Below are positions 37,642 through 55,041 of a stretch of DNA of 64,000 bases, piece after piece. Both the position numbers and the translations under genes were made by a program. The notes under the pieces were generated by a model that was given only the letters and a program-made list of their open reading frames with translations, was not told the origin of the DNA and ran no database searches. Each line of letters begins with the position of its first letter. Position 1 is the stretch's first letter. This stretch comes from Gemmatimonadota bacterium (GTDB taxonomy: Bacteria; Gemmatimonadota; Gemmatimonadetes; Longimicrobiales; Gaopeijiaceae), in contig JAPPGF010000023.1 in NCBI GenBank assembly GCA_028875075.1, forward strand, positions 38,396-102,395, given 5' to 3'.

Positions 37642-37716
37642 GGGCGCTTAGCTCAGCCGGTCGAGAGCGCCTGCTTTACACGCAGGAGGTCGCAGGTTCG
37701 AATCCTGCAGCGCCCA
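37642..37716 (+). tRNA. tRNA-Val(TAC)
   Basis: GGGCGCT...AGCGCCC acceptor, CCTGC-TTTACAC-GCAGG anticodon arm, GCAGGTTCGAATCCTGC T-arm. Confidence 0.96.
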
Positions 37717-37744
37717 TTGAACTTACGGGATCCGGGGGGTCTCA

Positions 37745-37770
37745 TGTCCGCTAATTGTGTCCGCTAATTG
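37745..37770. repeat. tandem perfect 13-bp direct repeat TGTCCGCTAATTG x2
   Basis: 37745-37757 and 37758-37770 identical, between tRNA-Val 3' end and integrase stop. Confidence 0.9.
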
Positions 37771-38936
37771 GAACCCGAACCGACCTCCCGGTACTCCTCG
37801 AGGGCCTTCCTGAGCCGGTCCTCGTCCGCCCTCTGATAACACTGGAGAACCGTCTGAGCGGTCTTCCAGCCTCCGAGTTCGCATAGGACCTTGAGTGGCA
37901 GATCCATGAGGTCGGACGCGAACTTCCGCCTCAAGGAGTGCCAGCCCCGGAGACGCTTGGGCTCCAGCTCCGCAAGCGTCTCGGCCTTTCTCCACCAGTC
38001 CCGAGCAAGCGAGCGGCTCATGCACGCTGACGGGTCCTTCGGGGCGGGCAGCAGGGGCGCGTCCCCGATCCCGGGGTTGTGCCTCCGTGCTTGCTCCAGA
38101 GTTGTCCGTGCCTTGGCGGTGACCGGTGTCCGATGCTCGTAGCCGGTCTTTTCATTCTCGCCCCGCCACCGGATGGTCCTGTCATCGAGGTCGATATCAG
38201 ACCACTGGAGCTTGCGGATGGCCCCGATGCGGTGCCCGGTCTCGTGGGCTAGCACCAAGGCCACGCGGAACCGCCAGTCCACCTCTCCTGCCACCCGGAG
38301 CAGCGCTTCGTACTCCGCATGGGTGAGCACCACTCGTCTCGGGTTCTTCTCCTTCGGCAGCTTGAGGCCCCTGAGAGGGTTGGACTGGACGAGGAGTCTT
38401 CCTTCCTCGTCCCGGGATTTCGCGGCCCAGTTGAGCACCGCGAGCAGGAACCTCAGATCGGACTCGATCGTTCGATCAGACACGGACCTGCGGCTGCCGC
38501 CGGCCTCTCCCGCACGCCGCGCCCGGATGAAGCGATCCCAGTCACGCTGCGAGAGCGTCCCGGCCTTGCGATGCCTTCCGAAGAATCGAAGGAACGTTCT
38601 CATTGTGGCCCGGTCGTGGTTACGCGACCTCCTGCTCTTGGTCGGTGTCACCTCTTCACCGTAGATGTCAAACAACTCCTCCAGGGTGAGCGTCTGGGGC
38701 TTGACTTCCGCCGCGCCCGCGCTAGCCGGTTCGGCGAGTCCGGCGGCCATCTCGTCCGCCTGCCTCTTGGCTCGGTCCCAGTCACGGTGTCCCAGCGACC
38801 GGGTGAGCCTGCGTCCGTTCTCGCGCCACTCGACCTGGATGATGCCGGTTCTGGGATCGGGGAAGACCCGTACCCGGTTCCGGCCCCATTCGCCAGCGCT
38901 ATAGGTGCGCTGGCCATGTTTCGTGTTGCCCATCAT
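37764..38936 (-). CDS. int: tyrosine recombinase/integrase
   Basis: HETGHRIGAIRKLQW, HSLRRKFASDL, GGWKTAQTVLQCYQ catalytic boxes; ATGA overlap with upstream gene. Confidence 0.92.
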   Translation of the reverse strand: MMGNTKHGQRTYSAGEWGRNRVRVFPDPRTGIIQVEWRENGRRLTRSLGHRDWDRAKRQADEMAAGLAEPASAGAAEVKPQTLTLEELFDIYGEEVTPTKSRRSRNHDRATMRTFLRFFGRHRKAGTLSQRDWDRFIRARRAGEAGGSRRSVSDRTIESDLRFLLAVLNWAAKSRDEEGRLLVQSNPLRGLKLPKEKNPRRVVLTHAEYEALLRVAGEVDWRFRVALVLAHETGHRIGAIRKLQWSDIDLDDRTIRWRGENEKTGYEHRTPVTAKARTTLEQARRHNPGIGDAPLLPAPKDPSACMSRSLARDWWRKAETLAELEPKRLRGWHSLRRKFASDLMDLPLKVLCELGGWKTAQTVLQCYQRADEDRLRKALEEYREVGSGSN

Positions 38937-39346
38937 TCGATACCTCTCTGGATGACGGACTCCACGATCTGCCGACTCGAAACCTCGCGCAGAGGCTGCC
39001 TCGACGCCAGACATGACTTATCAATCGTGGCCTTCCGGGGCAGGTGGTTGCGGGCGATCCTGGGCGCGCCGGGTCTTCCGGCGTTGGGGATCTTTCCATC
39101 CCGAACGAGCCGTCCGAGATGGTCGGCGGAGTAGCCGCTCTCCCTAGCCGCCTCGACGAGCGACAGGGTGGTCTCGTCCAGCTCCTGGAGGGTGGCATCG
39201 AGGTCGTCGGCGCAACGATCCAAGACCACGGCCGGGGTCTCTCCCCCGTAGCGGCGGAGCGTCTTGGCCTGCTTACGCCAGGCGACCGGCAGCGCTTCCA
39301 CGGAGGGTTGGTCTGCGCGCGGCCCGGTCTTCGTTCTCATTCCCAA
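38933..39346 (-). CDS. excisionase/MerR-like helix-turn-helix protein
   Basis: LVEAARESGYSADHLGRLVRDGKIPNAGRPGAPRIARNHLPRK. Confidence 0.7.
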   Translation of the reverse strand: MGMRTKTGPRADQPSVEALPVAWRKQAKTLRRYGGETPAVVLDRCADDLDATLQELDETTLSLVEAARESGYSADHLGRLVRDGKIPNAGRPGAPRIARNHLPRKATIDKSCLASRQPLREVSSRQIVESVIQRGIE

Positions 39347-39651
39347 TCTCCTTCGGCGTCCCTACTCAGTGCGTCGTTCAGGTCCGGGTCCCCTTCGCCC
39401 CGCCGTACGGACCGTTCGGCGAGATCGACGCGGCGTCCGAGGTCGGCGAGCCCGGTCGTGCGTGCGACGGCGTAGACGGTGGCGGCGATGGCCGTGAGCG
39501 CGAGCGCGGTGTGCAGCGCGAGGGCAATGCCGTGCTCGGCGAGGATGGCCGGCCAGAAGGGGCCGAGGTAGTCGAGGCGGGAACCACCGAGGAGCAAAGC
39601 CGCTCCCGCGACGGCGGCCGTGAGTCCCGCGCTGATCTTCCAGGGCTGCAT
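39337..39651 (-). CDS. small membrane protein of conjugative element
   Basis: Two hydrophobic segments; lies within co-oriented operon with overlap. Confidence 0.6.
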   Translation of the reverse strand: MQPWKISAGLTAAVAGAALLLGGSRLDYLGPFWPAILAEHGIALALHTALALTAIAATVYAVARTTGLADLGRRVDLAERSVRRGEGDPDLNDALSRDAEGDWE

Positions 39652-39668
39652 CGTGGTTGTCCGTGTGG

Positions 39669-40568
39669 TCAGAGTTCGACCGCGGCGGGGTCGCGGTCGG
39701 CAGGACCCTTGAGCCAGGACCGGTCCCCGCTTCCCAGGCCGAGCCTCCGGATGAGTTTTGCCGCGGCCGGTCCGTTGGCGTGGAGCCGGAACCCGGCGGC
39801 GGCCTTGGCGCGGACGGAGCGTTCGCGGTAGTTGCCGGAGACGGCCTCGATGTTGACGCGGCCGCTCCGGCCTTCGGAGTCCGCGTACTCGATTTGCGCA
39901 TCGGGGTAGAGCACGCGTCCCGCGGCATCGACCGGGAGTCCCAGCTCATGGGCGATGCGGTGCCGTTCTGCATCGGCGGCCCGCTTCCCTTCTTTCCTCC
40001 GGGCGGCCTCGCTTGCACGCGCGACTGTGCTCTTGAGTTCCGTGTCGAGGCGGATGCGTCGGACGGTGGCGCCCTGCGCCTCTAGCTGTTCGCGCTCCTT
40101 CCTGCAGGCGCGGTAGATGGCGGTGTCGTGGGCGGCCTCGCCGGGCCTGGCGCGTGAGAAACGGATCTCCTGCCCGGGATCCATCCCGCGCTCGGTGGCG
40201 AGCTGCCGCACCTCGGCCACGCCCTTGCGTGTGAGGCTCAGGACCTTGAACGGGTTGCCTCTGGGTCCGGTGGCGCAGGTCTCGGAGACGATCCCGTCGC
40301 GTATCCAGGCATTGACGGCCCTCCGGGTGGTGTAGGGGTGGCCGCCGAATCGGGCCTCGGCGAGGTCACGGTACGAGACGGTGCCGTGGACTCCGATGTC
40401 GGTGAGCCCTGCGGAGCATCGTTCGAGGAAGGAGACGGACCCGCGCTCCCGCTCGGCGGCGTATTCTCGGCGATGGCCGTTCCGCATGCGGTAGTTGTCG
40501 CGGCTGGGTGGCGCGGCGGGACGCGGGTCGCGTTCGACGCTGCGGTCGAACATCTCCTTGCCTCTCAC
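39669..40568 (-). CDS. winged-helix protein, replication-relaxation-like (tentative)
   Basis: N-terminal wHTH (VSYRDLAEARFGGHPYTTRRAVNAWIRDGIV...VLSLTRKGVAEV), C-terminal YPDAQIEYADSEGRSGRVNIEAVSGNYRERSVRAKAAAGF. Confidence 0.6.
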   Translation of the reverse strand: MRGKEMFDRSVERDPRPAAPPSRDNYRMRNGHRREYAAERERGSVSFLERCSAGLTDIGVHGTVSYRDLAEARFGGHPYTTRRAVNAWIRDGIVSETCATGPRGNPFKVLSLTRKGVAEVRQLATERGMDPGQEIRFSRARPGEAAHDTAIYRACRKEREQLEAQGATVRRIRLDTELKSTVARASEAARRKEGKRAADAERHRIAHELGLPVDAAGRVLYPDAQIEYADSEGRSGRVNIEAVSGNYRERSVRAKAAAGFRLHANGPAAAKLIRRLGLGSGDRSWLKGPADRDPAAVEL

Positions 40569-40571
40569 TGC

Positions 40572-41600
40572 TCAGCGGCTCGGCCCGAAGCTGCGTTCGG
40601 AGACCGGGAGCTTCAGCACGGGCACGACGACCCGTTCAGGACCGGGCGCTCGGGTTGCCGCCGCGGCCACGGGTTCCCGCACGGCCTCGCGCTCGCGGTG
40701 CCGCGTGAGCACGAAGTCGGAGATCTTCTGCGCGTCTGCGGCTGCGCGCCGGATCTCGCGCGGGTCCTCCTCGAGCGCGGCGATCCAGCCCTCGACGTAG
40801 GCGGCTCCCCGGCTCGGGTCGTGCCCGACGCCGACGCGTTCGCCGGTCATCATGGCGCTGATCTCGGCCCGGAGCTCCTCCCTCGCGTACTCGGCCGAGC
40901 CGAACCCGCTCTCGATCCCCTTGACGAGCGTCTCGCGGTTCATGCGCTCGGGGTGGCCGGTGCTGTGGCCTAGCTCGTGGAGCGCCGTCTGGTAGTAGTG
41001 GTTGGCGGAGGGGAACTGAGCCCGTGCCGGCAACACAATCTCGTCCTGGTTCATGTGGTAGAAGGCGCGGTCGCCCGCGACGTGGCGGATCGGCACGCCG
41101 CTGTCTTCGAGGACCCGCTCGGCCTGTTGGTGGGCTTTCCAGAGCGGCTCGGGTAAGGCAGCGGTGCGGGCTGGGAGTCCGTCTGCCTGCTCGGCGTTGA
41201 AGACGGTGTACTGGCGGATGTATGGGGTCTCGAGCTTCTCGTAGCGGTAGACGCGCTTGTCCTCAGCGTCCCGCTTGGGCCGTCCACGCTCGTCGGTGAC
41301 GGCTATCCGCTTCTTGTCCTGGAAGGAGAGGATGCGGGTGCCGTGCTCGCCCTTCCGGACCTGTCCGCCGCGCGCCTGGATCTGGCGGTAGGTGCCCCAA
41401 CGGACGTCGCCGTAGCCTTGCTTCTGCTGGACGGCGGCGAGATGCAGGCTGTTGCCACCCCTGTAGGACTGGCCAGTGTCGACGTTCATGGGGAGCACGC
41501 GCTCGCCCGGCCCCCACGGTTTCTGCCACGGCGCGGTGCCTTGCCGGATCTGCTCGACGATCGCGTCGGCGAACTTGCGGTGATACTCGTCGTGTTTCAT
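40572..41600 (-). CDS. ArdC-like antirestriction protein (ssDNA-binding N-terminal domain plus zincin-type metallopeptidase)
   Basis: IRQGTAPWQKPWGPGERVLPMNVDTGQSYRGGNSLHL; HELGHSTGHPERMNRE zinc motif; YAREELRAEISAMM. Confidence 0.88.
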   Translation of the reverse strand: MKHDEYHRKFADAIVEQIRQGTAPWQKPWGPGERVLPMNVDTGQSYRGGNSLHLAAVQQKQGYGDVRWGTYRQIQARGGQVRKGEHGTRILSFQDKKRIAVTDERGRPKRDAEDKRVYRYEKLETPYIRQYTVFNAEQADGLPARTAALPEPLWKAHQQAERVLEDSGVPIRHVAGDRAFYHMNQDEIVLPARAQFPSANHYYQTALHELGHSTGHPERMNRETLVKGIESGFGSAEYAREELRAEISAMMTGERVGVGHDPSRGAAYVEGWIAALEEDPREIRRAAADAQKISDFVLTRHREREAVREPVAAAATRAPGPERVVVPVLKLPVSERSFGPSR

Positions 41601-41797
41601 CGGTCGTCCTCCCGCTCGCCGTGCGGGTCGCTTCCGGCGTCCACGATCTCGTCCTCGCTCCCGACGTCCTCGGGGAAGAGGCCGTACTCCTCGGCCAGAT
41701 AGGCCGCGACCTCGAGCGTGTCGCCGCTGTCGCGCGCGAGCTCGCGGTCGAAGTCCTCGAACGTCTCGACCCGGATGGTCGTGTCGTTGCCCGTCAT
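41597..41797 (-). CDS. small acidic hypothetical protein
   Basis: 66 aa MTGNDTTIRVETFEDFDRELARDSGDTLEVAAYLAEEYGLF; 4-nt overlaps on both sides. Confidence 0.6.
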   Translation of the reverse strand: MTGNDTTIRVETFEDFDRELARDSGDTLEVAAYLAEEYGLFPEDVGSEDEIVDAGSDPHGEREDDR

Positions 41798-42804
41798 GCG
41801 TTCACCTCCTTCGGTGAGTGGGTTGTTGCTTTCTCGCGGGGCTCCGTCGCACGGCCCCAAACGGTCTCGGTGATCCACCGGCCTGTGCCCGCGTCGTAGC
41901 CCCGGACGCGGATGGCCTCCTCGACGAACCGCCGGCCCTTGAGGCGGGTCATGTGGAGCACGAGCGCTATCCCGTCGACGACGCCCCGGCAGGTGACCTC
42001 CCACGGGAGCGCGTCCCCGGCCTGCATGGCGCAGCTCGCGAGGCGGGAGAGCGCGGAATGCGCGTTGTTGGCGTGCACGGTGGTGAGCGAACCGCCATGG
42101 CCGGTGTTCAGGGCCTGTAGGAGATCGGCTGCCTCGGCGCCCCTGACTTCGCCGACGACGATGTGATCGGGGCGGTGCCGGAGCGCGTGGCGGACCAGGT
42201 CGCGGATCGATACGGATATCTCCGACTGGGCGCCTCCGGCCTCGAACCGGAGGCAGTTGGCGCGCTCGATCCTGAGTTCGAGCGTGTCTTCGATCGCGAC
42301 GACCCGCTCGTCCTCGGGCAGCAATTCGATCAGCGCGTTCAGGAGCGTGGTCTTGCCCGACCCTGTGCCCCCGGAGACGAGGATGTTCCTCCGGGACTCG
42401 AGCGTGGCCCGGGCAGCCTGCAGGACCGGATCGGGCAGCGCGCCCAAGCGCACGAGGTCTTCGGCCGAGAATGCCCGGCCTCCGAACCGGCGGATGGTGA
42501 TGGCGACCTCGGGGCTCGCGGGCGGCGTGCAGATGGCGACCCGCGATCCGTCGGCGAGCCGAGCGTCCAGGACAGGCCTTGCGGCCGGGTCGAGTCCGAG
42601 CGGCCGCGCGATGTGGATCGCCGCGCGGTGAAGCCAGGCGGCGGTGAGCTCGGGCGCTTCGTGGGGCTCAAGCTTCCCCGCCCGCTCGACCCACACGTTC
42701 CCCGGCCCGTTGATCATGATCTCGGAGATGTCCGGGTCCTCGAGCAGCGCTCCGAGGCCCGGAAGGAACGGCGTGAGATGACGGGTCCCGCTGGCGCGCG
42801 TCAT
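41794..42804 (-). CDS. VirB11/TrbB-type T4SS ATPase
   Basis: LVSGGTGSGKTTLLNALIELLPEDERVVAIEDTLEL; RHRPDHIVVGEVRGAEAADLLQALNTGHGGSLTTVHAN; start chosen at MTRASGTRH. Confidence 0.93.
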   Translation of the reverse strand: MTRASGTRHLTPFLPGLGALLEDPDISEIMINGPGNVWVERAGKLEPHEAPELTAAWLHRAAIHIARPLGLDPAARPVLDARLADGSRVAICTPPASPEVAITIRRFGGRAFSAEDLVRLGALPDPVLQAARATLESRRNILVSGGTGSGKTTLLNALIELLPEDERVVAIEDTLELRIERANCLRFEAGGAQSEISVSIRDLVRHALRHRPDHIVVGEVRGAEAADLLQALNTGHGGSLTTVHANNAHSALSRLASCAMQAGDALPWEVTCRGVVDGIALVLHMTRLKGRRFVEEAIRVRGYDAGTGRWITETVWGRATEPREKATTHSPKEVNA

Positions 42805-44840
42805 ATCCGTCCCTCCTCGCGGAGCCGCCAGTAGCCCTTGTGCCTCGGGAGGTAGTGGGGCTTCAGGTAGACGCGCCGGGCCGGGAGCGACTTGGCCCCG
42901 TCGTAGGGCAGGCAGACGGCCTGGTAGTTGGCGAGGAGCGTGAACTCGCGCGGTGTGAACACCGGCTCCCGTTGTTGCCGGAACGACTTGCTCGCGCCGA
43001 TGGTGCCGCGTCCTCCTCCGGCGCGTCCCGACAGGAGCGAGAACTCGGGCCTGCCGGTGGTCTCGGTGAACGTGTACGAGGGCAGCGTCTTCATGACGCT
43101 GCCGCACATCTCGGACGCGATCCGTGCGGAGGACTCGTCGGAGAGCGAGAGGAAGATCCGGGTCCTGAGCGTCTGGACGAGCGTGCGCCAGGCCTCTCCC
43201 GAGGGGAGCACGGAGCGGAGCGAGGAGATCGACTGAGTTGCGACGATCGGGATGCAGCGGCACTGCCGGGTCAGCGCGAATGCCTTCTCGTCGCCCGCCG
43301 GATCGTCCTGGCCCACGGTCGCGAACGCCTGGTACTCGTCGCACATGAACACGGCTGGCCGGAGCTTACGGCCGGGCCGGCGCGCCGCCTCGACGGGCCG
43401 TCGGAGCAATGCCTGCATCCACGCGTTCTTGAGCAGCACGCCGATGGCGCGGGCGAGGGCCGGGTTCGCGCCCGCGGGCATGTTGAGCGCGAGGACCTTG
43501 CCCTCGTCGATCAGCTGCGCGAGCGGCGGCAGCCGTCGCCGGAGTCCCGGCATGGGCTCGACGTCGGCGACGTCTCGGGCCAGTGCGGAGTCCTCCGTCT
43601 CCGCAGGTTTGGGGTCCTCCCCAGGCGGAGGCGGACAGAACACTCCCGCGACGTCGGGCTGGTCGAACAGCGAGAGGAAGACGCTGATGCCTTCGACGAT
43701 CGAGGTGCGGAGCTTGGCGTCGAGCACCGACCAGTCGTGGACGTACCACCGCTCGACGGCGTCCACCTGCTCGGCGTACTCGCTGCCGGTGGCGCCGGAG
43801 ACCGGCTCCGTCCGGTACTCGACCTTCAACTCCTCGAGCCGCGCGGCGCGGTCCGGATCGAGAAGGCACGCCACCATGCCGGCGGCGGGCGCCATTTCCC
43901 AGCCCCACTCCTCCAGCGCCTGCTTGTGCGCGTTCAGATCCTTGGCGGCGATGACGGCCCGCATGGGGCAAAGCCGCAGGGCCTGCGCCTTCGCCTCCCC
44001 GATCTTGTCGGCGAACAACGCGGCGTCGACGGTGCAGCGGTAGACGTCCCGGAGCGTGACCCAACCCCCCGGCAGGAGCCGGTGCAGCTCGACGATCCAC
44101 CGCACGAGGTTCGTGTACGCCTGTTGCCAGAACGGCTCCCGGCTCTTGCCGAAGAGCTGGTTGATGAGGGACGCGACGCTGTAGGCGAGCGAGTAGGAGT
44201 CGAGGAGAGGATCGTCGAGCGGGTTCCACTGCCAGGAGCCGCCGAGCCCGAGCTCGAGGTAGTCTTCGCCGCGCCCGGCGTCGTCGAGGATGCCCCGCAC
44301 CTGATGGCAGAAATCGCCCTTGACCTCGAGCACGAGCGCGCCCGCCCGGTGGCGGAGATCGTCGGCCTGCCAGTGGAGGAGCTGGCGCGCGAACGGGTAC
44401 ATGCACGAGGTGGTCTTGCCGGTCCCGACGGCGCCGACGATGAGGATTCCGGTGTAGAGCCCCATCTCGGGGATCACGAGCCAGGAGGGCCGCTCGCTCT
44501 CCTTCGGAGCGGTCGGATGATGCAGCTCGCCGATTACGAGCGAGGGCGTGTCGTCGTTCGGCGAGGCCGGCCACTTGGGTAGCCTGCCCCGCCGCCGGGG
44601 CCTCACGAGCGGCTGGAACCAGACCCGCCAGACCGAGAGCGTGAACAATCCGGCGAGCACTACGGCAACCGCTGGCCACGCGTAGTACCATGCCCGGATC
44701 GCGGCGTGCAGGCGTGGATCGTGGTAGGCGATCAGGTCGAGCGCCGGGCTGTCGCCGGTGCCCGGGAACGGCGCTTTGAGCGCTTGCGCGCCAGCGGCTC
44801 CGACGGCGCCCCCGATGATGGCGAGGGTACCGGACTTCAT
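42801..44840 (-). CDS. VirD4/TraG-type coupling ATPase
   Basis: N-terminal TM; GILIVGAVGTGKTTSCMYPF; VFMCDEYQAFATVG; start chosen at MKSGTLAIIGG, ATGA overlap with virB11. Confidence 0.92.
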   Translation of the reverse strand: MKSGTLAIIGGAVGAAGAQALKAPFPGTGDSPALDLIAYHDPRLHAAIRAWYYAWPAVAVVLAGLFTLSVWRVWFQPLVRPRRRGRLPKWPASPNDDTPSLVIGELHHPTAPKESERPSWLVIPEMGLYTGILIVGAVGTGKTTSCMYPFARQLLHWQADDLRHRAGALVLEVKGDFCHQVRGILDDAGRGEDYLELGLGGSWQWNPLDDPLLDSYSLAYSVASLINQLFGKSREPFWQQAYTNLVRWIVELHRLLPGGWVTLRDVYRCTVDAALFADKIGEAKAQALRLCPMRAVIAAKDLNAHKQALEEWGWEMAPAAGMVACLLDPDRAARLEELKVEYRTEPVSGATGSEYAEQVDAVERWYVHDWSVLDAKLRTSIVEGISVFLSLFDQPDVAGVFCPPPPGEDPKPAETEDSALARDVADVEPMPGLRRRLPPLAQLIDEGKVLALNMPAGANPALARAIGVLLKNAWMQALLRRPVEAARRPGRKLRPAVFMCDEYQAFATVGQDDPAGDEKAFALTRQCRCIPIVATQSISSLRSVLPSGEAWRTLVQTLRTRIFLSLSDESSARIASEMCGSVMKTLPSYTFTETTGRPEFSLLSGRAGGGRGTIGASKSFRQQREPVFTPREFTLLANYQAVCLPYDGAKSLPARRVYLKPHYLPRHKGYWRLREEGRI

Positions 44841-45135
44841 CGGAGCACGTCCCTTCCCGGAGGGATCGCTGGCTGGGAGCGACCCGAGGGGGAGGAGACA
44901 GGGGTGCGCAAACACACCTGTCTCCGAACCCGCAGCAGGCCCTCGGACTGCGGGGTCGCTCCCAGCACCGCCCCCGCGCCCCGATCGGCACTGGCCGGTC
45001 GGGGTGCGGAGGCGCAAGACGTTGGCGTGCGGTAGCTTGCGGAGCGGTGTCGGTGCGCATCGCCGGGGCGCTGAAGTGCGCATCGGCACCCCGCGTCGTT
45101 TGCGCGCTCGAGTGCGGCCATGAGGCGGGGGCGAC
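44841..45135. other. structured intergenic region: three consecutive hairpins (candidate oriT or structured RNA)
   Basis: 14-bp perfect IR 44872-44885/44953-44966 enclosing GGAGACAGG/CCTGTCTCC; 14-bp stem 44976-44989/44994-45007; 12-bp stem 45046-45057/45079-45090. Confidence 0.7.
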
Positions 45136-46068
45136 TCATCGGTAGAGGGCTCCCGCGAGGCGCGTGGTGCGCCAGGCACGGCCGCGGCGTACCGCCCCGC
45201 GCTCGGCCTGCCGGCGGACCTCGTCCTCGAGCGCCACGCTCCGCTTGAGCGCGGCCTGCAGACCGCCGAACTCCTCGAGGATCTGGACCGCGCCCTGAAG
45301 GATCGCGCGCTCGATCCGGGCGAGTTCGTTCCGGATGGCGGGGTCGGACTCACCGGTGCCGGCCGCCTCGGCCCAACCGCGGAGGACGCTACGCGCGCGC
45401 GCCGTCTCGTCCTTCGTGCGTCCGACGGCCACGGCCTCGACGGACCGACCCAACCGCGTGAGCGCGTGCCAGAGCCCCCGGTGCGTCGCGCCCCACGACC
45501 GGAGCGCTGTCGCGGTTTCGTGGCCGGGCTCGGCGTAGACGAAGACGGCGCGGGTCGAGTCCAGGGCGACGGGCATCTTGAGCGGGAAGTAGCGGCGGGT
45601 GTCCCCCGCCACGCCGCGGTAGAGGCGTGACGGCAGGAGCTCGCGCCCGATCCCGAGCGCCTCGAACGCCCGAACCTTCTCCCGCTCTGTCGGGAGCCAG
45701 GGCAGGTCCGTATGCTCGATCACGTAGTCGAGCGAGAGCAGGCGGCGCAGCAGCACGTCAGGGGATGCCATGCGGCGGTGGCGTATATGTTCGGCCCCGA
45801 GCGCGCGATAGAGGCTCCGTGCGTAGATCCGGCACACGCGGCCGATCCCCCGGATGCCCGGCACGGTCTCCTCGGAGGCCAGGCCTTGGGCGACCAGCGC
45901 GTGGGCCATGCGCCGCGCCCGTTCATGGTGCGTATCCAGGAACCGGGTCGCCTGGGCCCGCGTGAAGACCCCGCTGTGCAGGCACACGAGCGCGATCCAT
46001 TTGGCCTTCCGGCCCGTCCAGCCGAACGTCTCGAGCGCCTTCTCGCGTCCGTTGAGATGGAGCGTCAT
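45136..46068 (-). CDS. winged-helix protein of conjugative element (replication-relaxation-like, tentative)
   Basis: GRKAKWIALVCLHSGVFTRAQATRFLDTHHERARRMAHALVAQGLASEE wHTH; between virD4 and virB8. Confidence 0.6.
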   Translation of the reverse strand: MTLHLNGREKALETFGWTGRKAKWIALVCLHSGVFTRAQATRFLDTHHERARRMAHALVAQGLASEETVPGIRGIGRVCRIYARSLYRALGAEHIRHRRMASPDVLLRRLLSLDYVIEHTDLPWLPTEREKVRAFEALGIGRELLPSRLYRGVAGDTRRYFPLKMPVALDSTRAVFVYAEPGHETATALRSWGATHRGLWHALTRLGRSVEAVAVGRTKDETARARSVLRGWAEAAGTGESDPAIRNELARIERAILQGAVQILEEFGGLQAALKRSVALEDEVRRQAERGAVRRGRAWRTTRLAGALYR

Positions 46069-46733
46069 CGCTCCTGCTCGGTGACCAGCGCGCGGTCGGC
46101 CTGGAGGTAGGTGATGAGGAGCCCCATCGGGTTGTGGACCACCGCCTCCGGCGGGATGCTCTCAAGGAACTCGAAGCGCAGCGTGAGCGACCACCGCTCT
46201 CGCCGGATCTCCTGCTCGCCCCGGAGGTGCACGAGGTCGAAGTCGGCGGTGGCGCCGTGCGGTGGCTCGGGCGCCGGGTGGATACGGAGGACGACCTGCT
46301 CGACCTCGAGCTCGGTCTCGGCGGTCCCGGCCGCCATGGCGGCGACCTCGCCGGCGTCACGCCGGAACGCGGCGTTGGCGAGTGCGGTCGACAGGAAGCG
46401 CAGGCTGCGGGTCCACTGCTCCTCGACAGTCGCGCGGCGCCGCGAGTGGAAGTCGTGGACGAACCGGTTGAGGAAGTACTTCGTTGTCGGATCGAGCGGG
46501 TCGGCCTGCGCGGTCGCTGCCTCGTAGGCCAGCGCCTCGGCGCGGCCGACCTCGTCGACCCGGACGACGATCGGGCGCGGCGGCTCCGCGCCCGCGATCC
46601 GGAGCAGGACCACGACGCCGAGAGCGATGCTGGCGGAGAGGAAGATCAGGATCGTCCGCAGTTTCCTGTTCGCGGCGACCGCCTCGCCCCAGATCTCGGC
46701 GTACTCGCGGCCGGCGTCCTTGTCTGGCTTCAT
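46065..46733 (-). CDS. VirB8/TrbF-like T4SS protein
   Basis: N-terminal TM, REYAEIWGEAVAANRKLRTILIFLSASIAL, PIVVRVDEVGRAEAL. Confidence 0.88.
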   Translation of the reverse strand: MKPDKDAGREYAEIWGEAVAANRKLRTILIFLSASIALGVVVLLRIAGAEPPRPIVVRVDEVGRAEALAYEAATAQADPLDPTTKYFLNRFVHDFHSRRRATVEEQWTRSLRFLSTALANAAFRRDAGEVAAMAAGTAETELEVEQVVLRIHPAPEPPHGATADFDLVHLRGEQEIRRERWSLTLRFEFLESIPPEAVVHNPMGLLITYLQADRALVTEQER

Positions 46734-46753
46734 GGTGGGAATTCCTTTGGGCC

Positions 46754-47749
46754 TCAGGCGCCCGGAGCGGGTGTCTTGGCGGGGGCCGCCATGCCGGCAC
46801 CCCGTCCGGCGACGGCGATGAATCCGGATCCGACGGAGCCGGAACCGGAGACGAGCATGGCGGCGAGGTCGCCGACCTTGAGGCCGGCCATGAGGCCGGA
46901 TACGACGAGCGGGAGGAGCACGACGGCCCAGAGCCAGAGCTCAGCCGGGTCGGCGGTGCCGGTGCCCATCAGCGCATCGGCGTAGGTCGTGATGTAGCCG
47001 AGCCCGACTCCCATGAAGACCCTGAGGATCGCCCCGGCCACGACCCCGTAGAGCGTGTAGACCATCAGCGTTCGGAACCATCCCCAGAACAGGAACGCGA
47101 GCGGATCCAGCAGCAGGAACGGGATGAACACGGGCCCGAGGAGCATCGCGATGGCGACCGCGACCTGTGCCCAGATGACCTGCGCGTAGGTCACGCAGAA
47201 GAGCGCGACGAGCGAGAACACGAGCGAGGCGCCGATCGCGAGCGAAAGGAGCGACGAGAAGAGAACGCTGAGCCCTGCGGTCACGATCGAGAGCAGGTTC
47301 CCGGTCGACCACGCGCTGCCGAGGTGTGCGCCGTAGGCTTGGACGAGCGCGGCCATCTCGGTGTAGCCGGCCGAAACCACGTCGGAGAGGAACAGGTTCT
47401 GAAGCCAGATCCCCCCGCCGGCGATCATGGCCGGGAACGTGAACCCGACGCCCGGGATCGGGACCGTGTAGTAGTGGAGCAGCGTGCGGGGGATCGCGAT
47501 CCCGAGCACGAGCTTGACGATCGTCCAGGGGTCGAACGTGCCGCTGAACGCGATCCTGAGCCCCGTCCAGGCGATCATGACGGCGGCTAGTCCACCCCAG
47601 AGCTGGAGTCCGGCCGTGTGCACGTCGGCCGCGGCCCCTCCGATCACGGTGTCGAGCACGACGTCCAGGAAGTTCTTGAAGTCCTGGAGCCGGTCGGCCG
47701 GGATCTGCGTCGGGACGTTCGGGTCGATCGACTGCGGCGGGAGTTGCAT
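46754..47749 (-). CDS. VirB6/TrbL-like T4SS membrane protein
   Basis: Multi-TM; VPMFI-like core PVFIPFLLLDPLAFLFWGWFRTLMVYTLYGVV; start at MQLPPQS. Confidence 0.87.
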   Translation of the reverse strand: MQLPPQSIDPNVPTQIPADRLQDFKNFLDVVLDTVIGGAAADVHTAGLQLWGGLAAVMIAWTGLRIAFSGTFDPWTIVKLVLGIAIPRTLLHYYTVPIPGVGFTFPAMIAGGGIWLQNLFLSDVVSAGYTEMAALVQAYGAHLGSAWSTGNLLSIVTAGLSVLFSSLLSLAIGASLVFSLVALFCVTYAQVIWAQVAVAIAMLLGPVFIPFLLLDPLAFLFWGWFRTLMVYTLYGVVAGAILRVFMGVGLGYITTYADALMGTGTADPAELWLWAVVLLPLVVSGLMAGLKVGDLAAMLVSGSGSVGSGFIAVAGRGAGMAAPAKTPAPGA

Positions 47750-47768
47750 GGCGTGTGGCTCCCCCCGC

Positions 47769-48674
47769 CTAGTTGCCGCCGTAGAACGACGGGACCTGCA
47801 AGAGGAGCCCGTCCCGGAGGTCGGCACGACTCTGTGTCGCGGCGTCCCGCATCGTCTCCGCCATCGCACCCGCCCGCTGCCGGCTCTCGTGCCACTTGGC
47901 GAGCTGCTCGAGGCGCGCGAGTTCGGCCTGCCTCCTCCGGTTGGCCTCCTGCACGGCCTCGTAGGCGAGCACTTGGCTCATGGCCGCGCTGATCCGGCCC
48001 CGGCTAAGCGCGGCCGCGACACTCGCCTGTTGCAGCGCTGTTGCGGAGAGGTTGTTGTTCGCGGTCAGGTCCGCGAACGAGGCCTGTGAACTCTCGACGG
48101 TGGCCGCGAGCGCGGCCGCCGCGTCGAGCGTCGCGTAGTCGAGCGCGCCCTGCCGTCCGGCCGCCTCGCGCGCGCGCCGGAAGTCTTCCGCCGCGCGCGT
48201 CGCCGCCTGGGGCGGGAGGTCACGGTAGAGATCCAGGATGTCGGCCTCGCCGACCCGGTCGGCCGTGCCGAGGGCCGTGCGCCAGATCCGGGTGAACGAG
48301 CCGCCCCTTCCGAAATCGCGGACGGCGCCCGTCACGTCGTCCGCCGTGCCGGCGAAGTCGGAACTCCACGCGAGCCCGTCCCGCACCAGGCCCACGGGCT
48401 CGGCGGCGAGGTCCGCGAACGGCTCGACGAGCGCGTCGATCTGGCCCCGGGCGGCGCGTTCCATGTGGTCGAGCTGGTCCTCGAGCTCGGAGAGCTGGCG
48501 GGCCATCGACTGGACCTGGCGGACTTGGTTGGCGATCTGCACGATCTGGTTCGCGATCATCTGGGCGCGCTGGACTGCGCCTCCGACGTCGAACAGCTGG
48601 GCGCTTGCGGGCACGGGGGCCGCGAACGTCAGGAACGTTGCGAAGAGGGCGGGGACGAGGATGCGGTAGGGCAT
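47769..48674 (-). CDS. VirB5/TrbJ-like T4SS protein
   Basis: Signal peptide; AQMIANQIVQIANQVRQVQSMARQLSELEDQLDHM coiled coil; start at MPYRILVPAL. Confidence 0.85.
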   Translation of the reverse strand: MPYRILVPALFATFLTFAAPVPASAQLFDVGGAVQRAQMIANQIVQIANQVRQVQSMARQLSELEDQLDHMERAARGQIDALVEPFADLAAEPVGLVRDGLAWSSDFAGTADDVTGAVRDFGRGGSFTRIWRTALGTADRVGEADILDLYRDLPPQAATRAAEDFRRAREAAGRQGALDYATLDAAAALAATVESSQASFADLTANNNLSATALQQASVAAALSRGRISAAMSQVLAYEAVQEANRRRQAELARLEQLAKWHESRQRAGAMAETMRDAATQSRADLRDGLLLQVPSFYGGN

Positions 48675-48694
48675 GGGGGCAAAATCCTCTCGTG

Positions 48695-49942
48695 TCATCG
48701 GGACGTGGCGGAGGTGGGGACCAGGACGTCGGAGGTAAGCCAGATCCGGAGCCGGTGGCCGGCGCGGACCGTGAGGGTGGGCATCCGGTTCAGGAACCGG
48801 CCCAGGACCGAGGTCGCGCTCTGGCCGAGCCCTTGGCCGACGCCCGCTTGGAGGCCGTACGCCGGGGCGCCGGCGAGCGTGAAACCGCTCAGGACGCCGA
48901 CCGCTCCGGCGGCGGCGAACATTGAGACGTAGTGACGGTCGACTTCGTCCTTGAGCGCGCTTTCGCCCGCCTGGTTGAGGCCACGGAACTCGAGGTCGAT
49001 CCAACTGCCGCCGGGCAGGAGCAGCCGGTGGAACGCGACGGCGAGCCCGCTCTGGTCCCTGTCCTCGACCGCTTGGGCGGTGCCGACGACGCGCGCACCG
49101 CGCGGGATCAGGACGCGTTGGCGGTCTGCCGAATAGAGCGGCACCGACACCATGGCGAGCACCGGGCCGGGGAAGTCGCCCGAGAGCTGCGTCAACAGCA
49201 CCGCCTCGAGGAACGAGCCCTCGTGCACGCGCTCCCAGCCCGGCGGATCGTCCGGGCGGACCATCCGGCCCGGCTCCGGAGTGCCGGATGCAGGGGATCG
49301 CATGCCCGACGGAAGTGCTTCCATGGTCCCCGGCGGGAGCCCTGTGGTCGCCAGCCCGGCTTCGATCTCGTTCTCGAATGCTGCGAGCGACCGCTCTAGC
49401 GAGGTGAGCGTCCCCTCGAGAGCGTCTTCGAAGAACTCCGGCTCCCCGGAATCGCCGCTCGGCAATGCCCCACCATTCCGGGCCTCGCTGGGACTCCGGT
49501 ACGAGGACACGACGGGCTGCGAGCGTAGCGAGCGCATGCGCCGCTCGATCTCCTCGAGCCTAAGCGCCTCGCGAAGCTCCGCCTCCGCCTCACCGGTTAC
49601 TACCGCGCCGGACGCCTCCGATTCCGCGTCGGCGAGCGCAGCCTCTTCGGCCGCGTCCTGTAGCCGCGCGAACTCTTCACGGGCCTCGGTGGCCGCCGCC
49701 TGCTGGGTCTGGCGCTCGGTCTCCGCGCGGATGCGGCCCTCGAGCGCACGGCCCATCCCTTCATCCACGGCCTGCGGCTCCGGCGGGGCAGCCCCCACGG
49801 CCGCCTCCTCGGGCCCGGCGACGGACCAGGAGAAGAGGAGCCCGGCGACGAGCACACCCATCAGTGCGATCCCCGCCTTCGTGACGATGCCACCGGGGAG
49901 TGCGCCCCCGGGTGGACGCGCCCACTGTTTCCAGCGGCTCAT
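48695..49942 (-). CDS. VirB10/TrbI-like T4SS protein
   Basis: N-terminal TM; VHEGSFLEAVLLTQLSGDFPGPVLAMVSVPLYSADRQRVLIPRGARVVGTAQ. Confidence 0.92.
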   Translation of the reverse strand: MSRWKQWARPPGGALPGGIVTKAGIALMGVLVAGLLFSWSVAGPEEAAVGAAPPEPQAVDEGMGRALEGRIRAETERQTQQAAATEAREEFARLQDAAEEAALADAESEASGAVVTGEAEAELREALRLEEIERRMRSLRSQPVVSSYRSPSEARNGGALPSGDSGEPEFFEDALEGTLTSLERSLAAFENEIEAGLATTGLPPGTMEALPSGMRSPASGTPEPGRMVRPDDPPGWERVHEGSFLEAVLLTQLSGDFPGPVLAMVSVPLYSADRQRVLIPRGARVVGTAQAVEDRDQSGLAVAFHRLLLPGGSWIDLEFRGLNQAGESALKDEVDRHYVSMFAAAGAVGVLSGFTLAGAPAYGLQAGVGQGLGQSATSVLGRFLNRMPTLTVRAGHRLRIWLTSDVLVPTSATSR

Positions 49943-50802
49943 CGGTCACCGTCCCTGGGCTCGAACCGCCAGCGCATCCGCTTGTCGCCGATCTGCAACC
50001 AGCCGTCACCCAGCACGTGGCGCGCGATGTAGAGGCCGTCGTCGATCAGATCGAACGCCACGAGCGCAGGCTCGCCGTCCTTGAGTTCGTAGAGCGCCGG
50101 CGACTCCTGGGCGTGCGAGCGGACGTAAGTGAACCGGCCGTCGTGCCACATCGCCTCGACCAGGAACGGCCGCTTCGAGGCGCTCCCGTCCAGGCGGTAC
50201 TCGAACGCGAGCCGACCTGGGTACTCGGCCCGGAACGTTTCGATGGCGGCTTCCGCCTCGGCCCGCACGTCCAAGACTTGTGCCTCGGCCCGCTCGCGGG
50301 CCTCCCGCGCGGCGTCGGCAGACTGGGCCGCCATCTCCCGGTACGCGGCGACCTCGCTCCGGGCCACGAACGCGGGGCCGGGCGCGCCGTCAGCGGACAG
50401 GCGCCCCGCCTCCGCGCCCGCTTCGACGCGGACCACGAGATGCGGGGGCTTCTCGCCGTCCTCGGAAACCAGGAACGAATAGATACGGCCCGACTCGCAG
50501 ACGAGCGCAATGTTGGTCGCCGCGTCTTCGGCCAAGGGTTTCAGGAACGCGACGTTCGCGGCACCCGTCAGATGCCAATACTCCGAGTCGCCCACCACGA
50601 AATCGAGGATCCGCTCGTCGGCAGGGAGCACGATGACCGTCGTGTGCCGCACGCGCGTCAGCAGGCGGTGGATTCGTTCCTCGCCCTCCTCGGCGATCGG
50701 CACCCGAAGTACGGTGGCGGCCTCCTTGTGCTGGGAAGCAGCCCCGGCCGGGAGCCCCGCAAGCAGGAGTATCAATAGGATAGGTATGAAGAGGATTCTC
50801 AT
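49939..50802 (-). CDS. VirB9/TrbG-like T4SS protein
   Basis: Signal peptide MRILFIPILLILLLAGLPAGA; ANVAFLKPLAEDAATNIALVCESGRIYSFLV; WHDGRFTYVRSHAQESPALYEL. Confidence 0.9.
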   Translation of the reverse strand: MRILFIPILLILLLAGLPAGAASQHKEAATVLRVPIAEEGEERIHRLLTRVRHTTVIVLPADERILDFVVGDSEYWHLTGAANVAFLKPLAEDAATNIALVCESGRIYSFLVSEDGEKPPHLVVRVEAGAEAGRLSADGAPGPAFVARSEVAAYREMAAQSADAAREARERAEAQVLDVRAEAEAAIETFRAEYPGRLAFEYRLDGSASKRPFLVEAMWHDGRFTYVRSHAQESPALYELKDGEPALVAFDLIDDGLYIARHVLGDGWLQIGDKRMRWRFEPRDGDR

Positions 50803-53246
50803 GGCTGCATGTCCTTGGGGTTGAGGTGGGGTGCGGGTCGGCCCGTCAGGACGGCGAGGCCCTGGGTCAGTCCGTGCCTCGCGACGGCCTCGGCACGCTT
50901 CTCGGCGTCGAGCGCCGAGGACGTGTAGAGCCAGTAGCTCTCGGGATCGACCTCCAAGCGGAGGACGGCCGCCTCGTCCACGCGGCGGAGATAGAGCTCG
51001 CGCTTCGGCGCGAGTGTCCGGATGCGGGCGACTTCCGCCTCGTTCAAGCGGAAGAGCGCCCCGGCCTCGTCGGGGAGTTCGGGGTTCGCAAGGAAGAGTT
51101 TCGTCGGGATCGACTCGAGCAGCGCGGACGCCCCGGGCGTGCCCGTCACGTCCACCGCGGACTGAGTCGCGAGCACGAGCGCGGCGTTCTTCTTCCGCCA
51201 CGTCTTGGCGGCCTCGGCCAGGTAGGCAAGCACGGCGGGGTCGCGCATGTACCGCCACGCCTCGTCCACGACCATCAGTTTCAGACGTGCCGTCTCCGCC
51301 GGATCCTCGATCTCGAGGCGCATGCGCTCCAGCAGATACGAGAGCGCCGCCTCGCAAAGGTCCGCGTGCTCTGCAGCGCCGGCCAAGTCGATCACCTGCC
51401 AGTCCTGGAACTCAAGGTCCGGGGCGTCGGCTGGGGCGTTGTCGAAAAACGCGCCCCAGGCACCGCCCTCCGTCCAGCGGCTGAAGGCCGGCCACATCGC
51501 GGCCGGGAGCGAGCCGGCGAGCGCGCTCAGCCTGCGCCGCCCCGGCCCCAGCGCGTACAGGTCCTCGATCCGCGCGCGGACCTCGCTCGTGTCCGCTCCG
51601 CCGGGCTCGAAGCCGCCCAGCTTCAGCAGCCGGAGCACCCAGCCGGTCAGGAACTGGAACGACCGCGTCGTGGCAGGCAGGGCGAACGGCTGAAGCCGGA
51701 GCGTGGGCCCCGCCTCGCCGGGGGCGAGCTCGAGGTGACGGCCTCCGACGAATCGGGTCAGCCAGCGGTAGGAACCGCCCAAGTCCAGGATCAAGACGCG
51801 GGGGCCATACTTGAGCGCCTCGACAAGCAGGAAATTCAAAGCGAAACTCTTGCCCGATCCCGTTGCGCCCAGGATCAGCGTATGGCCGACGTCGCCACTG
51901 AACAGGTCGTAGTGGTAGCCCGTCCGCCACGGCGTCTCGAACACCGCGAGCGACTCGCGGCCGAGATGCTTGCTCCGGGAGGGGCCCCTCGGCGGCCCGA
52001 ACACCGGCGCGAGGCAGGCCGCAACCCCGGCCGAGACGAACACACTCCGCACCTGCCGCTTGCGCGGCTGGGCCGGGAGCCGTGCGAACCACGCGGGAAG
52101 CTGGCCGTAGCCCTCACGGATCGCCTTCGCGTCGTGCGCCGCGAAAAGACGCCGGACGTCACCGTCCAGGCGCTCGGTCTCGGCGAGGTCGCCGTGGAGC
52201 GCCACGGTGAGCGACGCCTCTCCGTAGGCCACGCCGTCGGCTTCGAGCTCGACCAGCGCGCCGCCCAGCCGGTCCGACTCGGCCGCCGCGGCCGAATCCA
52301 CCATCGCCGCCGTCGTGCCTTGCGTCTCCTGCACGTGCGACATCATCGAGTAGCGGCGTGAGAAGTAGTGCCGCTGCGCGCTACGGATCCGCCTCCGCGC
52401 TGCCTCGACCGTCCACGGCCGCCACTCGAGCGAGACCGTCATCACCGCATCGAGGCAGTAGAGATCCTTGAGCAGGTTCGCGTGCGCTTGCCCGGGCGGC
52501 GACAGGAGCGAGTAGAGGATCACCGGCTCGCCGTCGAGCCTCAGGTGCGAGCGCTCCGCCTCGAGCTCCGAGAGCGCGAGCCGCCAGTTCATGCCGCTGC
52601 CGGTCGCACCGTCCCAGACGGTTCCGGGGCGGTTGATCAACCCGGAGAGAAGCCCGGACGCCTCGCGTGCTCCGAGCAGCTCGATCGGCGTGTGCTCGGC
52701 GACGAGCGAGCGGCCCGCGTCGATCATCGCACCGAACCGGCCCGCCGCAGCTTCGATCACCGAGGCCAGGTAGGTCGGCGCGCTCTGCTGGCGCTTCCTC
52801 CACTCGGTCAGCCGAGAAACCAGTCCCGGTCGAGAGCCCTGGGGTGCCGAACGCAAGCCGGCGTCGTGCGACCAAACCACGTAGCACTCAAGACGCTGGA
52901 CGCGCTCGGCCAGGAACGCTTGACGCTTCCGGACCGAGACCGACGCGATATCGGAGCCGTGTCCCAGTGCCCTGCCCGTGGCAGGCACGGGACGGCGGAG
53001 AAGATAGAAGTACAGTCGCGTGTCGGAGCCGAGCCCCGAGAGCAACCGCTGCCAAAGGCCCAACACGCGGTCGATCTCTTCGGGCGTGCGTCCGTCGGTC
53101 ACGGCTGGCCTGATCCGGCCCGCCGCCATCAGCTCGCCCGAACGGGTCAGGCAGGTGTGGCCGTCATCGAGCCAGCCCCAATACGGCAGCTCTTCCGCCA
53201 GGGAGCCCGCCGCCTCGTGGGTCCGCAGTTCCTCGGCGACCCTCAC
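50799..53246 (-). CDS. VirB4/TrbE-type T4SS ATPase
   Basis: LILGATGSGKSFALNFLLVEALKYGPRVLILDLGGSYRWL; LKLMVVDEAWRYM; GTG start overlapping virB3 stop (GTGA). Confidence 0.92.
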   Translation of the reverse strand: MRVAEELRTHEAAGSLAEELPYWGWLDDGHTCLTRSGELMAAGRIRPAVTDGRTPEEIDRVLGLWQRLLSGLGSDTRLYFYLLRRPVPATGRALGHGSDIASVSVRKRQAFLAERVQRLECYVVWSHDAGLRSAPQGSRPGLVSRLTEWRKRQQSAPTYLASVIEAAAGRFGAMIDAGRSLVAEHTPIELLGAREASGLLSGLINRPGTVWDGATGSGMNWRLALSELEAERSHLRLDGEPVILYSLLSPPGQAHANLLKDLYCLDAVMTVSLEWRPWTVEAARRRIRSAQRHYFSRRYSMMSHVQETQGTTAAMVDSAAAAESDRLGGALVELEADGVAYGEASLTVALHGDLAETERLDGDVRRLFAAHDAKAIREGYGQLPAWFARLPAQPRKRQVRSVFVSAGVAACLAPVFGPPRGPSRSKHLGRESLAVFETPWRTGYHYDLFSGDVGHTLILGATGSGKSFALNFLLVEALKYGPRVLILDLGGSYRWLTRFVGGRHLELAPGEAGPTLRLQPFALPATTRSFQFLTGWVLRLLKLGGFEPGGADTSEVRARIEDLYALGPGRRRLSALAGSLPAAMWPAFSRWTEGGAWGAFFDNAPADAPDLEFQDWQVIDLAGAAEHADLCEAALSYLLERMRLEIEDPAETARLKLMVVDEAWRYMRDPAVLAYLAEAAKTWRKKNAALVLATQSAVDVTGTPGASALLESIPTKLFLANPELPDEAGALFRLNEAEVARIRTLAPKRELYLRRVDEAAVLRLEVDPESYWLYTSSALDAEKRAEAVARHGLTQGLAVLTGRPAPHLNPKDMQP

Positions 53247-53545
53247 CGGCCGCTCCGGATCACCAGATGCCACGGCTCCGCTGACCACTTGCCCGGATCG
53301 AACCGCGCCGGATGACGCGTCCCGGCCCGAAGCACCGCGAGCATCGCCGGGTCCTTCCTGCCAGCGAACCAGCCCGCGCCGTAGCTGATGGCGAACACCG
53401 CGCCGCCAGACGCGAGCGAGGTCGTCGCGTTCCACACCGCGACCGAGAGCATCGCACCCAGCAGGAACAACCGCCGCTCGACGCCCAACACCGTGAGCGG
53501 ACGGTTGAGCGCCGCGTAGCCCGGCCAACGCCTCAGGCCTCGCAT
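53243..53545 (-). CDS. VirB3/TrbD-like T4SS protein
   Basis: 100 aa, YAALNRPLTVLGVERRLFLLGAMLSVAVWNATTS; position between virB2 and virB4. Confidence 0.85.
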   Translation of the reverse strand: MRGLRRWPGYAALNRPLTVLGVERRLFLLGAMLSVAVWNATTSLASGGAVFAISYGAGWFAGRKDPAMLAVLRAGTRHPARFDPGKWSAEPWHLVIRSGR

Positions 53546-53829
53546 TAGAAGAGCCAAGCCAGGAAGTTGGCCGCGCCCATCGCCATCCCGAGACCGAAGA
53601 TGATCCCGGCCAGCGTCCGCTTGCTGCCCCCTTCGCCGAACGCGAACATCAGCCCGCCCACCACGATCGCGATCAGCGAGAGCCCCCGCGCAATCGGTCC
53701 CGTGAACTGAGCCTGCAACTCGTTGACCGCGTCCACCCAGGGACTCGTCTGCGCCCAGAGCGCGGCAGGCGTCAAGAGCCACACCGCCGTCCACGCGGCC
53801 GCCCGCATCGTTCTCAGCAACATTCTCAT
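53545..53829 (-). CDS. VirB2/TrbC-like pilin
   Basis: Signal peptide; TGPIARGLSLIAIVVGGLMFAFGEGGSKRTLAGIIFGLGMAMGAANFLAWLF. Confidence 0.88.
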   Translation of the reverse strand: MRMLLRTMRAAAWTAVWLLTPAALWAQTSPWVDAVNELQAQFTGPIARGLSLIAIVVGGLMFAFGEGGSKRTLAGIIFGLGMAMGAANFLAWLF

Positions 53830-54116
53830 GCCTCTTCCTCTCCTCGGTTCTCCGACGTGTGCGTGTCGCCCGGGCGTCCTTGCCCCGGCTCGGTCGACGG
53901 ATCCCCCGAACGATCCAACCCGTGCGCCCGGCTGTAGGCGTCCATGAACTCCAGCACCCGGTCCGCCGTCGCCAGCCTCGGCGACCGGCCCCGGCGCATG
54001 TCGCCCAGGAACTTCGTGTCACCGACTGACCGCACCCCCAACTGCGATGGCGTCAGGCGCGAGCGCCGCAGGAACACCGCCACTTGCCGCTCGAACTGCT
54101 TCGTCAGGTTCTCCAT
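53826..54116 (-). CDS. small HTH regulator (XRE-like) heading the transfer operon
   Basis: RRSRLTPSQLGVRSVGDTKFLGDMRRGRSPRLATADRVLEFMD; start chosen at MENLTKQF. Confidence 0.65.
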   Translation of the reverse strand: MENLTKQFERQVAVFLRRSRLTPSQLGVRSVGDTKFLGDMRRGRSPRLATADRVLEFMDAYSRAHGLDRSGDPSTEPGQGRPGDTHTSENRGEEEA

Positions 54117-54324
54117 TGCGCGTTGACCAAAACATCGAGTCGGCAAATCGCGCAATAGGACAGAGTGAGGGATAAATCCCTTTTCGTTGGCGGACAACGA
54201 GATACGGAAGTCGTGGTTTCGCCGCTCTCCGCCAGTGGGTTTAGAGGGGTGTGAAAAGGAGCCCTACAAACTGGTGGGAAGCCGGGCTTGCTGTAGGGCC
54301 GGATCATGGGTAGTTTCCCACTCC
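54117..54324. promoter_or_regulatory. divergent control region with nested inverted repeats
   Basis: GCCCTAC(54261-54267)/GTAGGGC(54293-54299), internal AAGC-CGG-GCTT, and GTGGGAA(54274-54280)/TTCCCAC(54315-54321). Confidence 0.55.
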
Positions 54325-55041
54325 ATGAGTTGGCGAAGGGTGAAGAGCGATGCGGAGCTGGATCCGGTCCGCCGACGGCTGCTAAGGCTAGTCGCCAATA
54401 GCCGCACGAACCTGCGCACGGCCTCGCTCGCCATCGAGCGCAACCCCACGTACCTGCACCAGTTCATCCACCGCAGCTCGCCCCGCGTTCTCGCGGAGGA
54501 CGACCGCGAGGCCTTGGCCGAGTACCTTGGTTGCAGCTCCGACCTGCTGCGGCACGAACGGAGCGCACGGCGCGCTGCGCGTCCCAGTCCGCTGCCGCCC
54601 GGCCCCTACTCCGCGCCCAAGGGCTACAGCGTCGTGCCGGAGATCGATGTACGAGCGGCGGCTGGCGCCGGGGCGTGGAATGAAGAGCTGGAGGAGATCA
54701 AGGAGGCGTGGCTGTTCGCCGATCCCCTCATCCGCCACGAGTTCCGGGCCAAGCCCGACGACCTGCGGATGATCACCGTCGACGGCGACTCCATGGAGCC
54801 GCTGCTCTCGAGCGGCGACCGCATCATGATCGACGTCAGCCAGAACATGCCGTCACCGCCCGGCATCTTCGTCATCTGGGACGGACTCGGGCTCCTCGCG
54901 AAACGGATCGAGCACGTGCCCCACTCGGATCCACCCCGCGTGGTCCTCAAATCCCTCAACCCGCAATACGACAGCTACGAACGCGTGGCCGAGGAAATCC
55001 GCATCGTCGGTCGTGCTGTCTGGGTCTCCAGAAGGCTGTAG
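54325..55041 (+). CDS. S24/LexA-family phage-type repressor with N-terminal HTH
   Basis: ASLAIERNPTYLHQFIHRSSPRVL HTH; GDSMEPLLSSGDRIMID Ser and LLAKRIEH Lys of the S24 peptidase dyad. Confidence 0.87.
   Translation: MSWRRVKSDAELDPVRRRLLRLVANSRTNLRTASLAIERNPTYLHQFIHRSSPRVLAEDDREALAEYLGCSSDLLRHERSARRAARPSPLPPGPYSAPKGYSVVPEIDVRAAAGAGAWNEELEEIKEAWLFADPLIRHEFRAKPDDLRMITVDGDSMEPLLSSGDRIMIDVSQNMPSPPGIFVIWDGLGLLAKRIEHVPHSDPPRVVLKSLNPQYDSYERVAEEIRIVGRAVWVSRRL

Follow-up and report, generated by a model that had tools for sequence, protein, structure and literature searches.

The window, i.e., the whole 64,000-nt stretch of DNA analyzed here, carries a conjugative element with a core of roughly 17 kb (Table 1). 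The genes are arranged in the order int1-xis-g104-RR299-ArdC-g135-virB11-virD4-gap-wHTH-virB8-B6-B5-B10-B9-B4-B2-g123, followed by an S24 regulator on the + strand; B5 and xis are named from position alone. This gene order is common, as a whole or in part, to about a dozen relatives, in which virD4 is mostly 76 to 82% identical. The named relatives are mostly Gemmatimonadota MAGs, including Candidatus Palauibacter, and some carrier MAGs are labeled Gammaproteobacteria or Acidobacteriota, which may reflect either transfer or mis-binning. The right end of the window is the contig end, and a search for att repeats gave none for this element and none for most of the others. To the right of the element, positions 55505-56437 hold an open frame whose C-terminus (residues 253 to 308) matches Phage_int_M; it may be what is left of a different integration, or the ORF may be poor and the match due to chance. 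An Ig-like repeat protein (Big_9/Big_2) at 59805-62444 is partly common to the region past the end of another element (G015:C13).

The gap of 295 nt is flanked by the gene of the coupling protein VirD4 and that of the DNA-binding protein wHTH. A preliminary description of this DNA had called it the only large gap of the conjugation block; indeed, no other intergenic stretch longer than 46 nt occurs from int1 (37764) to where the S24 gene ends (55041), and the inverted repeats listed there agree with the window sequence in both letters and coordinates. The folding stability of the gap (z = -5.4 on the + strand and -4.1 on the - strand) was equaled by none of 200 dinucleotide shuffles. A coding gap was ruled out by stops in all six frames of 28 virD4-linked relatives (9 to 26 of the 28 sequences in every frame) and by the absence of a codon-phase signal in the same relatives. 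The gap is real, non-coding, and strongly structured.

Table 1. Positions of the element, its genes, and the features of the gap in the window
Feature	Position	Strand	Basis or remark
Element core, roughly 17 kb	37764..55041	-	Adjoins tRNA-Val (37641-37717); Pfam/NCBIfam and gene order
int1, tyrosine recombinase	37764..39014	-	Pfam PF00589
RR299, winged helix and PD...E motif	39669..40568	-	P222, D223, and E241 invariant in 13 homologues
VirD4/TraG coupling protein	42801..44840	-	Pfam TraG-D_C/TrwB
Gap, candidate oriT, type I	44841..45135	+	Homologues and covariation
Hairpin 0, short (CCCT..AGGG)	44851..44864	+	Adjoins virD4 ribosome-binding region; pairing of 88% across 28 relatives
Hairpin 1	44872..44966	+	Outer arms 44872-44885 and 44953-44966; 92.6% of cells paired; 5 compensatory pairs
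Hairpin 1 inner stem	44894..44925	+	Loop holds iteron A; 83.3% paired; 5 compensatory pairs
Iteron A, TGCGCA	44905-44910	+	In loop of hairpin 1 inner stem
Hairpin 2	44976..45007	+	76% paired; 8 compensatory pairs
Conserved unpaired motif CGCAAGAC	45013..45020	+	Between hairpin 2 and iteron B; columns mostly invariant in 28-row alignment
Hairpin 3 of the preliminary description	45046..45090	+	Exists in window copy; not conserved in family, 58% paired
Iteron B, TGCGCA	45054..45059	+	
Iteron C, TGCGCA	45077..45082	+	Direct repeat of iteron B, 23 nt away
Iteron D, inverted (CGTTTGCGCG on +)	45097..45106	-	Pairs with iteron C as hairpin
wHTH protein, 310 aa	45136..46068	-	Gene abuts gap; AlphaFold pLDDT 87; MarR-like N-terminal winged helix

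Conserved hairpins and iterons of the gap

Pairing and covariation were evaluated in an alignment of type I copies linked to virD4 (28 rows). These relatives retain hairpins 1 and 2 with compensatory changes, and the covariation score is 0.165, compared with 0.087 +/- 0.006 for shuffled controls (0 of 500) and 0.036 to 0.076 for slid ones. The outer arms of hairpin 1, which lie 67 nt apart, change together (GGG/CCC, GGT/ACC, GCT/AGC, and TGG/CCA), i.e., the sequence varies while the pairing is kept. The third hairpin of the preliminary description does not extend to the family (58.0% paired versus 58.3% in shuffled controls), which has in its place an array of four short-motif iteron sites: site A in the loop of hairpin 1, sites B and C, and site D, inverted, after C. 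The helix formed by iterons C and D is 87.5% paired in the 28 relatives, with three compensatory pairs. As a guess, the unpaired motif that precedes iteron B (Table 1) is a candidate for the nick region.

Type I copies carry one iteron class at all four sites, either TGCGCA-like or TGTGAA-like, and mixed copies are few. In two of them, L114 (4260-4577) and L173 (L093), site A belongs to one class and sites B to D to the other; these copies are perhaps recombinants or half-switched sites. Type II gaps have the same architecture with different motifs, e.g., TGCACA, TGTCCG, and TGTACA.

The preliminary description had also pointed out that all four non-Watson-Crick pairs of its hairpins 2 and 3 are G.U if the + strand folds, and had offered a structured RNA antisense to the operon as one explanation. 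This asymmetry is peculiar to the window copy. Among 88 copies, G.T and A.C are at or near balance both in the outer stem of that hairpin 1 (5:5) and in hairpin 2 (48:44), and the inner stem of hairpin 1 (46:11) is the only one leaning to the + strand; related sequences enter these wobble counts, as well as the pair counts, as separate rows. The argument from G.U bias was dropped, because the bias is not general across the copies. After composition correction, the + strand folds slightly better than the - strand, with a mean difference in z of -0.9 for type I and -1.2 for type II. From these comparisons, we infer that the conserved structure acts in DNA rather than in RNA.

The winged-helix protein and the gap copies of islands

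Hairpin 1 follows 93 of 101 wHTH genes. No match to the wHTH model in the PDB was below an E value of 0.001, and a search of PLSDB plasmids did not find wHTH. In 44 type I proteins, the columns of the 310 that best separate the iteron classes (97.7%) are residues 46, 48, 50, and 54, which are located at the predicted recognition helix (helix 48-60 of the model). The few exceptions to this link carry other motifs or other helices. In a tree of wHTH from which the helix part was removed, the class label switches at least three times on the starred branches, and the sister proteins L168 and L173 (support of 100/99 for the rest of the protein) differ in both the recognition helix and iterons B to D. 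In a partial Mantel test of all wHTH types, the recognition helix exceeded the 95th percentile, yet it was not the top window, and the claim is therefore limited to type I, within which the link between helix and iteron is clean; the all-type signal is diluted by clade structure. We propose that wHTH is a sequence-specific relaxosome factor that reads the iterons.

A DNA search of 150 genomes with the gap alone, its own genome included, gave homologues in 23 of them, often several per genome, and in at least four places in its own genome. At least 113 distinct copies were collected, of which 34 have wHTH without virD4 and 42 have neither; these counts are lower bounds, and the genomes are mostly fragmented MAGs. 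Besides complete elements, the layouts wHTH-gap-virD4-int1, wHTH-gap-int1, and gap alone were observed. The gap is thus retained in integrase-bearing islands that have no secretion genes, and in some of these islands the coupling protein is still beside it. In the own genome of the window, an orphan gap is adjoined by an MzaA-like defense protein (L103, 11136-12152).

Many islands carry two gaps. Among the 27 distinct adjacent pairs, type I joins type II in 22, the two copies are on opposite strands in 24, and 20 are both heterotypic and on opposite strands with their virD4-sides facing each other. The full dual layout, wHTH_I> GAP_I ... GAP_II <wHTH_II int1>, was found in L185, L194, and L198, and in others one wHTH gene has been lost, or both. 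The paired gaps are 0.1 to 3 kb apart with varying contents, including TIR-domain, periplasmic binding, and outer-membrane proteins and unknowns; in eight dual islands, the distance is 100 to 389 bp, in which a gene would hardly fit, if at all. In L176, the DNA from one gap to the other reads, in our interpretation of the sequence, as a remnant of the virD4 N-terminus, and at least this island therefore seems to have arisen from a complete element by deletion. At the ends of one dual island are att repeats of 41 bp, copies of the tRNA-Arg 3' end that lie 10.5 kb apart. Since int1 of the dual islands is 69 to 91% identical, the dual layout was probably invented once, long ago, rather than many times; one ancestral layout may underlie the 20 facing heterotypic pairs, which therefore do not represent 20 independent events.

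Several neighbors of the paired gaps were recognized. The cargo between the facing gaps of L117 (12984-14183) is a TIR-domain protein of the CAP12/Pycsar type, likely an anti-phage effector. A type IIG restriction enzyme-methyltransferase adjoins a three-gap island (L105, 6216-9005), and an IS110-family transposase is located between the gaps of another island (L111, 7359-8360).

Function of the gap and comparison with known systems

We consider it probable (about 75%) that the gap and wHTH are the oriT and the winged-helix specificity factor of integrative conjugative elements of Gemmatimonadota, and that mobilizable islands exploit them. The gap is non-coding DNA beside the genes of a coupling protein and a DNA-binding protein, contains conserved inverted repeats, and is kept in elements without a type IV secretion system, which may be mobilized in their turn. 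The protein binding, nicking, transfer, and helper use that we infer from this arrangement would proceed as follows. By binding the four repeats, including the one in the hairpin 1 loop, wHTH would decide which oriT is used, while the hairpins, as cruciform or single-stranded DNA, would serve to present the transferred strand or to close it. The gap would be cut by a nicking enzyme, and VirD4 would pass the DNA to the secretion channel. Smaller islands that retain the gap, with or without a winged-helix gene of their own, would be moved in trans, and those with both specificity types on opposite strands could be moved by either kind of helper.

The strongest argument for an oriT is, by analogy, the match of the dual islands to the rule of multi-oriT plasmids. 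In staphylococcal plasmids of this kind, two oriTs are invariably on opposite strands and 58 of 67 multi-oriT plasmids have no copies of the same subfamily, a pattern attributed to deletion by the relaxase between copies on the same strand (PMC4652767). The opposite-strand heterotypic pairs of the gap follow this rule for real oriTs, and neither an operator nor a replication origin would predict them. Of the functions put forward in the preliminary description, the oriT is well backed by comparative evidence: the gap persists without secretion genes, the iterons track wHTH, and copies of different type are found on opposite strands. The single-strand origin gained no positive evidence, and the antisense RNA was not supported.

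It is unlikely that the gap is instead an operator or leader, with wHTH as a transcription factor for the operon from virD4 to int1, and that the islands couple their integrase or cargo to the regulator of the helper. SGI1 couples to its helper's regulator in this manner via AcaCD. The gap heads the run from virD4 to int1, the N-terminus of wHTH is MarR-like, int1 is downstream of the gap in the same direction in several islands, and dual copies facing cargo could be promoters; however, a scan for sigma-70 found no promoter or terminator consensus in the gap, and the closely spaced facing copies leave little to drive. Furthermore, L102 and L119 have an integrase that belongs to a different family and points toward the gap in its transcription, the long arms of hairpin 1 that vary yet pair are not needed by an operator, and the S24 repressor is divergent and at the other end of the operon. 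The two roles may coexist, as oriT-binding factors often autoregulate.

Somewhat less probable still is that the excised element replicates from the gap, as a double- or single-strand origin, with wHTH as the initiator. The direct repeats B and C are spaced as in iteron origins, and hairpins suit a single-strand origin, but the GC content of the gap is 73.6% (50% in the lowest 20-nt window) and no A+T-rich unwinding element is present beside the iterons. Moreover, the coupling protein is kept beside the gap in islands without secretion genes, and an initiator role leaves the opposite-strand heterotypic pairs unexplained. It is very improbable that the gap is a structured RNA running antisense to the tra operon, despite the somewhat better folding of the + strand, given that the gap has no Rfam match, no promoter, and near parity of G.T and A.C in hairpin 2 and the hairpin 1 outer stem, that G.U is nearly absent from the outer stem, and that the repeats are linked directly to a DNA-binding helix.

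A point against the oriT is that profile searches recognized no known relaxase family among the core proteins of the element, several of which have no assigned function, and no conserved gene able to be a relaxase was found beyond the S24 gene. Membership of wHTH or RR299 in Replic_Relax (PF13814) was dropped since neither has a profile match; a genome search for this family was weak, and control genomes were silent too. In RR299, P222-D223 and E241 resemble the motif of PD-(D/E)xK nucleases, whereas its model has a mean pLDDT of 59.6 and the fold matches listed are nearly all winged-helix regulators, with no nuclease. The N-termini of RR299 and wHTH are alike in a profile comparison (probability of 67.6%, E = 5e-5). 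RR299 is at best a weak candidate for the nicking enzyme. The relaxase TcpM, described below, is tyrosine-recombinase-like. Because the MpsA relaxase is related to tyrosine recombinases (PMC8409611), int1 is kept as a candidate as well. Nicking by an undescribed relaxase family, i.e., RR299, wHTH, or int1 in a second role, which wHTH targets to the hairpin site, is a tentative proposal with nearly even chances. PF03432 (MOBP) relaxase matches were found elsewhere in the genomes and none on the window's contig. None of five such regions inspected, including L222 (G000:C15:100001-112000), L224, L225, and L226, has a gap copy, and several of the matches have proteins beside them that are, in our reading, MobC-like; these regions are a second, separate mobilization route.

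No homology to TcpK-pCW3 or SmpO-pWBG749 was found, although the proposed mode of working is alike. In pCW3 of Clostridium perfringens, the MarR-like winged-helix factor TcpK is encoded directly upstream of oriT, binds its tandem repeats, and is thought to confer specificity, and TcpM, an atypical relaxase, shows no sequence specificity when it nicks DNA in vitro (PMC6137059). wHTH shares with TcpK both the winged-helix fold and a gene directly beside the putative oriT, whereas TcpK is absent from the PDB sequence matches and from the best 50 fold matches of wHTH. TcpK, a protein of 102 aa, touches DNA with its wing and not with the canonical helix; wHTH has 310 aa, and its canonical recognition helix tracks the repeats.

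In the pWBG749 family, the accessory protein SmpO sets the oriT subtype, a few residues switch the specificity (PMC8136818), and non-conjugative replicons carry several subtypes on opposite strands (PMC8136818, PMC4652767). SmpO is a ribbon-helix-helix protein beside a known relaxase, a domain that is not present in wHTH, which has a winged helix instead; hosts, sequences, and element type also differ, and the gap family resides in integrated islands, in which the facing layout recurs. SGI1-like islands are likewise integrative and mobilizable, with an atypical relaxase (MpsA) and an oriT in which three stem-loops are strictly conserved (PMC8409611), whereas no MpsA-like relaxase is recognized here and help probably comes from a conjugative element in the chromosome of the same lineage. 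Islands of the iOriT or oriT-mimicking type, which have only an oriT and an integrase, are mobilized in trans (PMC11389934); those described here differ in that they pair two specificity types, one on each strand, and in some of them each type has its own winged-helix gene.

The gap thus provides a candidate oriT and specificity code for a relaxase-less-looking conjugative system of an understudied phylum, and about 90 recognition helices with their target repeats are on offer as natural pairs. The rule followed by hitchhikers, i.e., different oriTs on opposite strands, appears to recur in unrelated hosts and elements, here with cargo space added between the two copies.
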